Source: Bacillota bacterium
Lineage (GTDB): Bacteria > Bacillota > Clostridia > Oscillospirales > CAG-382
Assembly (NCBI GenBank): GCA_029550965.1
Contig: JAKPGJ010000009.1
Span: 1 to 64,000 of the forward strand
Direction of reading: 5' to 3'
DNA length: 64,000 nucleotides
Positions within the stretch are counted from its first letter, which is position 1. Every line of letters starts with the position of its first letter. Below are positions 24,269-29,486 of the stretch, piece by piece. A model generated the notes under the pieces. It searched no databases. It saw nothing but the letters and a program-made list of their open reading frames with translations, and had not been told where the DNA came from. The position numbers and the translations under genes are program-made.

Positions 24269-24325
24269 CCGATGATAAAAAAGTTCTGTAACCCTCCTTA
24301 TAGTAAGCAGAAAGGCGGTGTAGAA

Positions 24326-24886
24326 ATGGACAAAAAGGAAGCAGACATTTATTTCGGCGAAATATATGAGAAAACATATACTGAGCTCAGTACCTATGTA
24401 ATCGCGCGAATCCGAAATATCGACGACGCAAAGGATTTGCTGCAGATTGCATATACTTCATTTTACAAGCGTCTGCTGAACAAAGGTGCCATACCCGCTC
24501 AAGCTGCCATCGCTTATTTAAAAACCACAGCAAAACATGAGCTTGGCAAACATTTCGGCTATATCCGGAAAAGAGAACTGCTCTCGCTGGAAGACGAGGA
24601 ACTTCCGCAGTCTGTCATCGAGGAAATCGCTTCCGACAGCTTTGAGGAGAGTCTGCTGGACAGCCTGATGCTTGAGCAAATATGGTCTTATATCCAAAAG
24701 AAGGGCGGGCTTACATACCGCATCTTCATCCTTCGATACACATACGGTTTATCCCTTGAGCAGACGGCGTAATGTCTGTCGATTCCAATGCACAGCGTCG
24801 CGAACCGGATATACCGCACCATCAAAGAACTGCAAAAGCAGTTCTGCGGTCAGGAAAATTTAAGAAAGGAGCCGGTTGCAGAATGA
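24326..24886 (+). pseudogene. ECF-type RNA polymerase sigma factor with an in-frame TAA
   Basis: From the ATG at 24326 (AAAGGCGG ahead) the frame encodes sigma region 2 (ARIRNIDDAKDLLQIAYTSFYK), a linker, and region 4 up to YTYGLSLEQTA. It is then stopped by TAA at 24770-24772. The same frame stays open after the stop as CLSIPMHSVANRIYRTIKEL and on to VAE, ending TGA at 24884-24886, overlapping the next start. The continuation is exactly the missing recognition helix of region 4, so a single base change (for example GAA to TAA) has cut the gene. The short 148-residue product would lack DNA contacts to the -35 element. Readthrough or a sequencing error are the alternatives. Confidence 0.8.
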
Positions 24887-26328
24887 TCACGCAAAATGAC
24901 ATCAAAAAAGCAGCAGAGAACTTTTATATCAAAAAAGACGAACTTTTGAATGAAATTCTTTCTTCGGATCTTACGAAGAAAAAGAAAAGCAAAAAGCTAA
25001 GCCTTCCGCTTCGGCGCGCGATAGCGGCATTAGCGGCTGCGGCAATCCTTTTTGCCGGATATTTTACGGTTTACGCAATGTCTCCGGAGTTCCGGAGCTA
25101 TATCAACCTCTGGTTTATGGGCAGTCCGCGCAAAGATAAAGTTCCCGAAGGATATATCGGCATTTATACCATAGAGGACCTTGACAATATCCGCAATAAT
25201 TTAGGCGGAAAGTATATCCTGATGAACGACCTTACCTTCTCCGACAGCGACTTCGCGGAGGGCGGAAGGTTCGAGGGCGGCTGGACCGCGATCGGCGATA
25301 ACGAAAACCCCTTCACCGGCGAGTTTGACGGCAACGGGCATGTCATCAGCAACATTACCTTAAAACAGGGTAAAACCTACACGGGTCTTTTCGGTGTATC
25401 CCAATTCAAAAAAATTAATGACAAATATTACAGTTATTACAAATCGGCATATGACGGAATTATAAAGAATCTCGGTTTGAACGGTGTTAAAGCAAATATT
25501 GAAATAAGCGTAGAGGACTATTATTGTATCGGTTCTGTTATTGCAAGTGGAAGGTATGTCACAGGTTGTTTCGCTGAAAATGTAATGTTTAATATATACT
25601 TTCCTGACTTTCAAAAAGAAGGGCCGATTGAAAATCAACAGTATTCTTTAAAAGGAGCTCTTTATATTGGCGGTATATGCGGCAGAGCGTACATTATAGA
25701 TAGCTGTTATGCTGATGTGGATATCAAATTTCATGACGTCAATAACAAGCTGGATGAGAAGTACCGCAACGATTTTCTATTAGTCGGCGGAGTTGCTGGT
25801 ATGTCCTGCAACATCGTGACCTCCTATTATACCGGCAATATCTCCTTAAATGAAAATGCTTTCGGTTCGGGAGAAGTCTTAAACTACAACACCATTATGC
25901 CGTATGTCATTACAGAAAAAAGATATAATGAAATTAATCAAAAACTTACCGAAAAAGCAAATATAAATGGCGGTCCAAACAAAGACCGCGATTGGAAGGT
26001 GTTCAACGCATTTTATCATAAAGAACCGCCGCACGCCATAGTACGCGATCTGCTGATGCGAAGTATTGACGAGTATGAGGAGTTTTATATTCTCGAATGG
26101 CAAGCAACCAAAAAAGAAATCATGCGGCTCGAGGCAATACTCTTACAAGTCTACGACCGAGAGGAGTTTAAAAATGGCACATTAGCAGACAGCGTCAAAT
26201 CCGGCATCGACTTCTGCTACACGCTCGAAAAAGGCAAGGCGTACGACAAGAGCTACTTTGAGCACTTCGACTTTGAAAACATCTGGGTTATGAAGGATGG
26301 AGTTCCCAAACTGCGGATATTTCAGTAA
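24883..26328 (+). CDS. Membrane protein with anti-sigma-like N-terminus and GLUG-type outer domain
   Basis: A 481-residue protein. The ATG at 24883 overlaps the TGA of the sigma frame, as is usual for sigma/anti-sigma pairs. Residues 1-45 are cytoplasmic and charged, one membrane segment lies at about 45-65 (RAIAALAAAAILFAGYFTVY), and the outer part contains a GLUG-like repeat region (IYTIEDLDNIRNNLGGKYIL, WTAIGDNENPFTGEFDGNGH, KTYTGLFG, then cysteine-containing coils). The layout suggests it holds the sigma factor at the membrane and senses something outside, but no defined anti-sigma motif can be named. The C-terminal 180 residues are unrecognised. Confidence 0.6.
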   Translation: MITQNDIKKAAENFYIKKDELLNEILSSDLTKKKKSKKLSLPLRRAIAALAAAAILFAGYFTVYAMSPEFRSYINLWFMGSPRKDKVPEGYIGIYTIEDLDNIRNNLGGKYILMNDLTFSDSDFAEGGRFEGGWTAIGDNENPFTGEFDGNGHVISNITLKQGKTYTGLFGVSQFKKINDKYYSYYKSAYDGIIKNLGLNGVKANIEISVEDYYCIGSVIASGRYVTGCFAENVMFNIYFPDFQKEGPIENQQYSLKGALYIGGICGRAYIIDSCYADVDIKFHDVNNKLDEKYRNDFLLVGGVAGMSCNIVTSYYTGNISLNENAFGSGEVLNYNTIMPYVITEKRYNEINQKLTEKANINGGPNKDRDWKVFNAFYHKEPPHAIVRDLLMRSIDEYEEFYILEWQATKKEIMRLEAILLQVYDREEFKNGTLADSVKSGIDFCYTLEKGKAYDKSYFEHFDFENIWVMKDGVPKLRIFQ

Positions 26329-26369: not shown

Positions 26370-27092
26370 TTATGCTTTTAAACCGTAAGACATCAGAATC
26401 TGTCTATATTCTTCCACCTGTTCCGGCTGCGGCGGCTGAACCTCGGCAAGCGTGTACGGGATTTCATGATTTTCCCACTTGTACTCGCCGATTTTATGGA
26501 AAGGCAGAAGCTCTATCTTTTCGACGCAGCGGAAGTCTTTTAAAAATTCTCCCATGCGGCGCGCCTGTTCGTTGTCAAGCGTGTAGCCGGGCAGCAGAAC
26601 ATGGCGTATCCAGACCGGTTTGCCGACGCTTTCGCAGTATTCGAGCAGTTTGACGGCGTTCTCGGTTCCGGCGCCGGTTATTCTTTTGGAAAGCGCGCTG
26701 TCGATGGCTTTGATGTCTAAAAGCAGCATATCGACCTCGTCCACCGCGGCTTTGCATTTGGCAAGCGGAATACAGCCGGAAGTGTCCACCGCCGTGTGGA
26801 AACCGTTCTGTTTGCAAAGCCTGAGAAGCTCCAAAGCAAACTCGCTCTGCAGAAGCGGCTCGCCGCCCGAAAGCGTCACGCCCCCGTTTTTTATAAAGTT
26901 CCGGTAGCGTTTTATTTGCTCAACCAACTCTTCCGCTGTTGCTTCCCTGCCGCCTGACGCGTCCCAGGAATCGGGATTGTGACAGTACAGACAGCGAAGC
27001 GGACAGCCCTGAAAAAACACGACAAACCGGATGCCGGGGCCGTCTACGGCTCCGAAGGTTTCTATCGAATGAATCCGTCCGGTAACGCCCAT
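26370..27092 (-). CDS. pflA: Pyruvate formate-lyase activating enzyme
   Basis: A 240-residue radical SAM enzyme that installs the glycyl radical in PflB, using S-adenosylmethionine and a 4Fe-4S cluster. The ATG at 27092 has AAAGGG ahead; the TTG at 27110 overlaps that site. The cluster cysteines are Cys30, Cys34 and Cys37 in QGCPLRCLYCHNP. GGVTLSGGEPLLQ is the SAM-binding GGE motif and DLLLDIKA-type sequence follows. Length and the preceding TFGAVDGPGIRF match PflA closely. It lies 24 bases after the pflB stop, as a two-gene operon. Activity requires an oxygen-free cytoplasm. Confidence 0.95.
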   Translation of the reverse strand: MGVTGRIHSIETFGAVDGPGIRFVVFFQGCPLRCLYCHNPDSWDASGGREATAEELVEQIKRYRNFIKNGGVTLSGGEPLLQSEFALELLRLCKQNGFHTAVDTSGCIPLAKCKAAVDEVDMLLLDIKAIDSALSKRITGAGTENAVKLLEYCESVGKPVWIRHVLLPGYTLDNEQARRMGEFLKDFRCVEKIELLPFHKIGEYKWENHEIPYTLAEVQPPQPEQVEEYRQILMSYGLKA

Positions 27093-27116
27093 ACTGTCAC
27101 ACCCTTTCAAAGTCTA

Positions 27117-29333
27117 TTAAAACCGCGTATGGAAGGTTCTGTTGATAACGTCAAGCTGCTGTTCCCTGGAAAGTTTGATAAAATTGACAGCGTAGCCCGA
27201 AACCCGGATGGTTAGCTGCGGATATTTCTCGGGATGCTCCATCGCGTCGAGCAGAACCTCCCGGTTGATGACATTGACGTTGATATGGTGCCCGTCCTCC
27301 GCAAAGTATCCGTCCAAGAGCGAGGTCAGATTTTTGATTCTCTGTTCCAGATCCTTGCCCAGCGCCGCCGGCACAATCGAGAAGGTATAGGAGATGCCGT
27401 CCTTCGCGTATTCATACGGGATAGAGGCGACCGACATCATCGAAGCGATGCAGCCGTTGGAATCCCTGCCGTGCATCGGGTTCGCGCCCGGCGCGAAAGG
27501 CTCGCCGGCTTTGCGTCCGTCGGGGGTCGCGCCCGTCTTTTTGCCGTAAACCACGTTCGAGGTAATGGTCAGTATCGACATGGTCGGCTTGGAATTTCTG
27601 TAGGTGCTGTGCTTGGACAGCTTTTTCATAAAGTGCTCGACCACCATGCGCGCAATCTCGTCCACCCGCGGGTCGTTGTTGCCGAACTTCGGGTAGTCGC
27701 CCTCGATTTTGAAGTCCACCGTCAGCCCCTTCTCGTTGCGGATCGGGTGCACTTTCGCGTACTTAATCGCGCTGAGCGAATCGACGACCACCGAGAATCC
27801 CGCGAGTCCGCAGGCGGAGGTCCGGTAAATCTCCTCGTCGTGCAGCGCCATCTGCAGGCTCTCGTAGCAGTATTTATCGTGCATGTAATGGATGATGTTG
27901 AGCGTGTTGATATACAGCCTGGACAGCCAGTTGCAGATCTGGTCGTATTTTCTCCAGACCTCGTTGAAATCCAGCGTTTCGTCGGATTTTATCAACGCCA
28001 TTTCGGGTCCGATCTGCTCTCCGGTGTTTTCGTCCTTGCCGCCGTTGAGCGCGTAAAGCAGCGCTTTCGCAAGGTTTGCCCGCGCGCCGAAGAACTGCAT
28101 CATCTTTCCGATTTTCATCGCCGAAACGCAGCAGGCGATGCCGTAATCGTCGCCGTACTCGGGGCGCATCAGGTCGTCGTTCTCATACTGAATCGAGGAG
28201 GTCTCGATAGACATGCGCGCGCAGTAGTTCTTAAAATTCTGCGGCAGCCGCTGGCTCCAGAGCACCGTCATGTTCGGCTCGGGCGCGGCGCCCAAATTGG
28301 TCAGCGTATGCAGGAAGCGGTAGGTCATCTTGGTGACCATGTGCCGTCCGTCGATGCAGACGCCGCCCAACGATTCGGTTACCCAGGTCGGGTCGCCGGA
28401 GAACAGCTCGTCGTACGCGGGCGTGCGCAGGAACCGCACCATGCGCAGCTTCATGACAAAGTGGTCCACGAACTCCTGAATCTCCGACTCGGTGTATCTG
28501 CCCTCCTGCAAATCCCGCTCCGCGTAAATATCGAGGAAAGTGGAAATTCTGCCGATGGACATCGCGGCGCCGTTCTGCTCCTTGACGGCCGCGAGGTACG
28601 CGAAGTACAGCCATTGAATGGCTTCCCGCACGTCCTGAGCGGGCCGGGAAATATCGTACCCGTACGTCGACGCCATTTCCTTCAGCGCTTCCAGCGCGCG
28701 GATCTGCTCGGACAGCTCCTCGCGCTGCCGGATAATCTCGTCGTTCATAATGTCAAAGACATAGTCTTCTTTTGCTTTTTTCTTTTGCGCAATCAAGTAA
28801 TCCACGCCGTAGAGCGGAACGCGGCGGTAATCGCCGATAATCCTTCCTCTGCCGTAGGAATCGGGCAGTCCGGTAATAATGCCGCTGTGGCGCGCTTTGC
28901 GCATATCTTCGGTATAGGCGTCGAAAACGCCGTCGTTGTGCGTCTTTCTGAACTGGAATATCTTCTCGACCTCGGGGTCCATCTTTCTGCCGTATGCTTC
29001 CAGCGAGGATCTGACCATCCGGATGCCGCCGAACGGCATAATCGCTCTCTTGAGCGGCTCGTCCGTCTGCAGACCGACGATCAGCTCGAGGTCTTTGTCG
29101 ATATAACCCGGTTTATGCGAAGTGATTGTGGATATCGTATGCTCGTCAATGTCAAGGACGCCGCCGTTTTCGCGTTCCTTGGCAAGAAGCGCTTTTACCT
29201 TATTCCACAATGCCAGTGTGCGTTCCGTCGGCGAAGCGAGAAAACTTTCGTCGCCGTCGTAAGGCGTGTAGTTTCTGACAATAAAGTCCCTGACATTGAT
29301 GTGATGCTGCCATTTGCCTTCTTTAAATTCCAT
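27117..29333 (-). CDS. pflB: Formate C-acetyltransferase (pyruvate formate-lyase)
   Basis: A 738-residue enzyme converting pyruvate and CoA to acetyl-CoA and formate. The ATG at 29333 has AAAGGGG 8 bases ahead, so the 8 extra residues from 29357 are not counted. The adjacent catalytic Cys pair is in [10 protein letters not shown] (about 401-402). The glycyl radical site is in [10 protein letters not shown] near 713, 25 residues from the C-terminus. The length and [11 protein letters not shown] start match anaerobic PflB rather than diol dehydratase-like relatives. Its activator gene follows directly. Confidence 0.97.
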
Positions 29334-29486
29334 AATCAATACCCCTTTCACCCGCATATTTTCTTTGAGATCATTTTACCCGAATCTATTCTAAAGAGCA
29401 ATAATATTTTTTTATAGTATTTCCGATTCTTATTATAACATTTTTGTGGTGAAATACCATATAAAAAAGCGGGGTTTAATTTTTTA

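Follow-up and report, generated by a model that had tools for sequence, protein, structure and literature searches.

The window (the whole stretch of 64,000 nucleotides analysed here) carries a gene for an ECF-type sigma factor, as judged from sequence, followed directly by a gene for a membrane partner (Table 1). The sigma frame runs from the ATG at 24326 to a TGA at 24884–24886 and contains a single internal stop, TAA at codon 149, with 148 codons before it and 37 after it, all in frame with the ATG. The original prediction had described this TAA as breaking an otherwise intact ECF-type frame, and its coordinates and codon counts were right. At its end the frame overlaps the partner gene in an ATGA, with the partner ATG at 24883–24885. 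The sigma gene is present as a single copy in its genome: we rejected a second copy, as the other paralogues are distant (at most 33% identical).

Table 1. Features of the sigma gene and its membrane partner, in window coordinates
Feature	Position	Strand	Basis
Upstream element conserved with the homologue L006 of genome G023, TGATnAAAAAnTT...CTCCTTATAGTAAnCAGAnAGG; holds the ribosome-binding site, perhaps a promoter	24273–24315	+	Local alignment score
Putative ECF-type sigma factor, residues 1–148 (region 2, linker, start of region 4)	24326–24769	+	Translation; profile matches to solved ECF sigma factors; colinear with L006 (69% identical), which has no internal stop
In-frame TAA, codon 149; premature stop in the first helix of the region 4 helix-turn-helix	24770–24772	+	Sense codon at the site in 11 of 11 aligned relatives
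Remaining 37 codons of region 4, including the recognition helix, then the original TGA	24773–24886	+	Pfam match, alignment with L006, outgroup identity, predicted fold, codon usage
Shine-Dalgarno-like AAAGGAGC before the partner start (putative function)	24865–24872	+	Sequence
Membrane partner, probable anti-sigma factor/sensor: a single hydrophobic stretch between a short N-terminal part and a long outer part with a weak GLUG-like motif	24883–26328	+	Reading frame; 39% identical to the G023 partner that follows its sigma gene

The upstream element (about 43 bases) aligned locally to the corresponding G023 sequence with a score of 46, compared to a maximum of 27 in 1000 shuffles, and may act as a promoter. 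The promoter criterion for positive ECF autoregulation was AAC at –35 together with CGT at –10. The TGAAAC motif found before many relatives is absent from the element, and the –35 preference of the window and G023 pair possibly differs from that of the relatives.

We consider the partner a probable anti-sigma factor of the sigma gene. This assignment rests on its position and on a loose N-terminal pattern because searches of Pfam and NCBIfam gave no match to a curated anti-sigma family. The gene lies directly downstream and encodes a single hydrophobic stretch (judged by eye), as in membrane anti-sigma factors, with about 45 residues before it. Across twelve sigma/partner pairs, the partner N-termini share a pattern of approximately K-E/D-L...K...DKE.IR..IL before the hydrophobic stretch (24883–25100 in the window), while the outer parts differ; the common pattern suggests a shared sigma-binding segment. 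The partner role implied by the original prediction is supported only by position and N-terminal pattern, and no recognised anti-sigma domain was matched in Pfam or NCBIfam. The GLUG-like motif in the outer part scored E 0.05, below the cut-off, and the partner also matched a phage-protein family of unassigned function (phrog_30905, E 5e-12). Separately, GLUG-like proteins from other genomes of the family (L034–L040, several of them long) resemble the outer part, and one of these matched stretches (L039) contains two stops. Two more sigma/membrane-partner pairs, both uninterrupted, lie on other contigs of the same genome (L002 and L003, 33% and 26% identical).

The partner is probably translatable without the sigma tail, from the Shine-Dalgarno-like sequence upstream of its start. 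Translation could instead restart at an ATG at 24772, which overlaps the premature stop (as TAATG). The reading frame from this ATG runs uninterrupted into the partner (24772–26328) and would add 37 N-terminal residues to it. We find such a restart scarcely credible: no Shine-Dalgarno sequence precedes this ATG, whereas the partner's own start has one, and the codon usage of the extension ranks at the 0.3 percentile among coding segments and lies within the range of off-frame ones.

Sigma factor family, predicted fold, and truncated product

Several comparisons support assignment of the gene in frame 24326–24886 to the ECF-type sigma factors. A profile built from an alignment of twelve relatives (A1) was matched to solved ECF sigma factors, with the best matches being the ECF factor in 6dxo (the BldN–RsbN complex), SigW, AlgU/SigH, Escherichia coli SigE, and SigL; SigK also matched. 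Pfam Sigma70_r4_2 matched read-through residues 132–169 with E 1e-4, although at 22.3 bits the match is below the curated cut-off of 25.7. Four relatives (L007, L002, L003, and L010) passed the TIGR02937 cut-off; the score of the nearest homologue, L006, fell under it (37.9 versus 42.9). ECF sigma factors consist of sigma2 and sigma4 only, joined by a linker of under 50 residues (PMC8103513). This family has the same two-domain, short-linker build, both in chain length (about 170–195 residues among the relatives) and in the predicted fold, where the helices form two blocks separated by a low-confidence linker at 81–104. The fold was computed on the read-through frame with an arbitrary residue placed at the stop (mean pLDDT 76, pTM 0.42). 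Foldseek returned ECF sigma factors, but the TM-scores over whole chains were low, a probable consequence of different placement of the two domains; taken by itself, region 4 superposed well on the region 4 structures of SigE and SigD (TMt 0.65–0.84).

In the predicted read-through fold, the region 4 helix-turn-helix is made up of helices 144–151 and 155–174. Residue 149 therefore lies in the first of these and the recognition helix is the second, in agreement with the original placement of the stop just before the recognition helix. As written, the frame ends after residue 148 and does not encode a complete region 4. Because the stop falls in the first helix of the helix-turn-helix, the recognition helix is missing from the product, and the product as encoded is, on this model, a truncated sigma factor that does not work. 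Translation would yield region 2 and an incomplete region 4 that lacks the –35 recognition helix, and the truncated protein would be blind to its promoters, a presumptive loss of function; the target genes are therefore expected to stay off. The partner, with its own ribosome-binding site, may continue to be made from the same transcript. If the sigma factor drove its own promoter, as autoregulation would have it, the pair would fall silent.

Region 2, through which ECF sigma factors chiefly bind core polymerase, is complete in the truncated product. The original prediction was that the product could still bind core polymerase and perhaps act as a decoy, but this intact region is the extent of the support for it, and for a fragment that ends inside a region 4 helix we judge degradation at least as likely as stability. 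A stable decoy or regulator occupying core polymerase or the partner is also at odds with two further observations: the short form recurs in no second genome (36 frames, 394 genomes of the order), and the tail is undecayed, though decay would be expected had the short form long been kept. We consider this reading very improbable, and we give slightly less credence still to a narrower case, that of a genuine truncation, fixed in the population, whose short product has been retained as a regulator binding core polymerase or the partner but recognising no promoters.

The cell might also bypass the stop. A low rate of readthrough of the TAA would give small amounts of full-length sigma factor, consistent with the preserved tail and with the RNA past the stop, which folds better than most shuffles (80 bases, z –2.58; 4 of 200 shuffles as good). 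Within the region 4 tail lies a perfect 8-bp hairpin, AGAACTGC-AAAA-GCAGTTCT, at 24826–24845, with no T run after it; this hairpin would suit readthrough but may be chance. However, TAA is the commonest normal stop in the window, and no conserved programme of readthrough is indicated because the relatives have no stop at the site. We therefore hold readthrough to be a slim prospect. Reassignment of the stop codon was rejected since TAA closes 32 of the 43 long frames in the window, making recoding unlikely. Bypass by frameshifting was likewise rejected because head and tail already share one frame, so that a single frameshift would not help.

Homologues and the origin of the stop

The closest homologue of the interrupted gene, L006, belongs to another genus of the same family (genome G023, corresponding to Clostridiales bacterium GWF2_38_85) and has no internal stop. 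The two sigma factors are 66% identical over residues 1–174 and colinear on both sides of the stop, upholding the view that the 37 codons past it continue region 4 unshifted to the ATGA overlap. In G023 the sigma gene is followed by its partner in the same order as in the window. The pflB and pflA genes adjoin the sigma pair in both genera, in differing arrangements (26370–29357 in the window; L047:7385–13172), and a functional tie is possible. Sigma relatives at E 1e-10 were found in 6 of 63 genomes of the family, the only close ones being those of the window and G023; the two genomes of the same genus have distant relatives only (28–33% identical). One same-genus genome, G002, was considered as a clean empty site and rejected: its neighbouring genes are ordered differently, which precludes a simple comparison.

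We compared divergence on the two sides of the stop. The head is 69% identical to L006 and the tail 48% (25 residues). Past the stop, mean identity to outgroups was 0.374 for the window and 0.378 for the uninterrupted homologue; before region 4, it was 0.274 for both. The lower tail identity to L006 is thus not peculiar to the broken copy, because both tails are equally near the outgroups. Codon usage of the tail in the sigma frame exceeded that of 98.9% of off-frame segments and fell at the 19th percentile of true coding segments. Three features, a tail free of excess divergence, its coding-like codon usage, and the conservation of the upstream element, lead us to conclude that the lesion is either young or an assembly error. 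The earlier impression that the damage looks recent fits these results, with no acceleration past the stop relative to the outgroups. A dN/dS comparison with the uninterrupted homologue was uninformative, as synonymous sites are saturated; for this reason, and because the data hold one close homologue, the age of the lesion is poorly bounded.

At the level of sequence, the missing traces of decay suit a recent mutation and a base error equally well. The stop could accordingly be an artefact of the draft, from an erroneous base or a minority strain, in which case the real gene is uninterrupted and encodes an ordinary ECF sigma factor. The preserved appearance of the tail, partner, and upstream element is in keeping with such an error, as is the state of the source genome, a draft of 54 contigs. 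Against it, a codon-usage scan of the window for other nonsense-interrupted genes did not indicate many more: two of the seven best candidates (8396 and 62627) were ordinary gene junctions, and by eye none of the rest looked like a split gene in this 64-kb window, although the scan is coarse and weak because it ranked 24770 itself only 19th. We regard an error in the draft as a possible though less likely account, which suits the data almost as well.

We surveyed 394 genomes of the order, in which 36 frames matched the sigma family (the search gives the best stretch per match only). The window's sigma gene was the only one of these with an internal nonsense codon, and the same stop was absent from the aligned site in relatives (eleven aligned; 36 frames from 394 genomes). 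A frame in G087 flagged as a second nonsense case was rejected, the flag being its natural terminal stop. In G197 (L078:3100–3640, minus strand), a frameshift in the linker, close to a purine-rich stretch, puts region 4 out of frame with region 2, and an uninterrupted frame with a typical partner start lies downstream. Two of the 36 matching frames, judged from best-stretch matches, are therefore broken, by lesions of different types, roughly the share to be expected from ordinary decay or from errors in draft assembly. With a second broken sigma gene beside an uninterrupted partner, such a lesion recurs and no special mechanism is needed. Our literature search found nothing directly on point for natural ECF sigma pseudogenes.

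Together, these observations lead us to favour, as the probable explanation, an ordinary pair of ECF sigma factor and membrane anti-sigma factor in which the sigma gene has acquired a single recent nonsense codon in one genome. The lesion itself is most likely a recent loss of function or an assembly base error and not a novel mechanism. A real stop would mean that this clostridial lineage has recently lost one of its sensory regulons, with the probable anti-sigma factor persisting for a time; taken with the G197 frameshift, it would hint that in such pairs the sigma gene is occasionally the first to go. An assembly error would instead serve as a warning to annotators. Under either outcome, the general picture is unchanged.

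Comparison with known systems

The pair resembles SigW–RsiW, SigV–RsiV, and E. coli SigE–RseA (ECF, group IV) in that the sigma factor has regions 2 and 4 only, joined by a short linker, and in that the partner gene lies directly downstream with an overlapping start and encodes a single hydrophobic stretch. It differs from them in that the sigma gene is interrupted by a stop and in that the curated anti-sigma families of Pfam and NCBIfam gave no match to the partner. In the two-subunit sigma factor SigO–RsoA, each sigma domain is a separate protein (PMC8103513), and here too regions 2 and 4 are not on one complete polypeptide. Unlike in SigO–RsoA, however, the second piece consists of 37 codons that start inside region 4 and lack its first part. 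We rejected a two-part sigma factor of this type given the split inside region 4 and a tail whose only in-frame ATG (24788) has no Shine-Dalgarno sequence. The G197 sigma pseudogene (L078) likewise combines one lesion in a preserved sigma gene with an uninterrupted partner, but its lesion is a frameshift in the linker, whereas that of the window is a nonsense codon in region 4.
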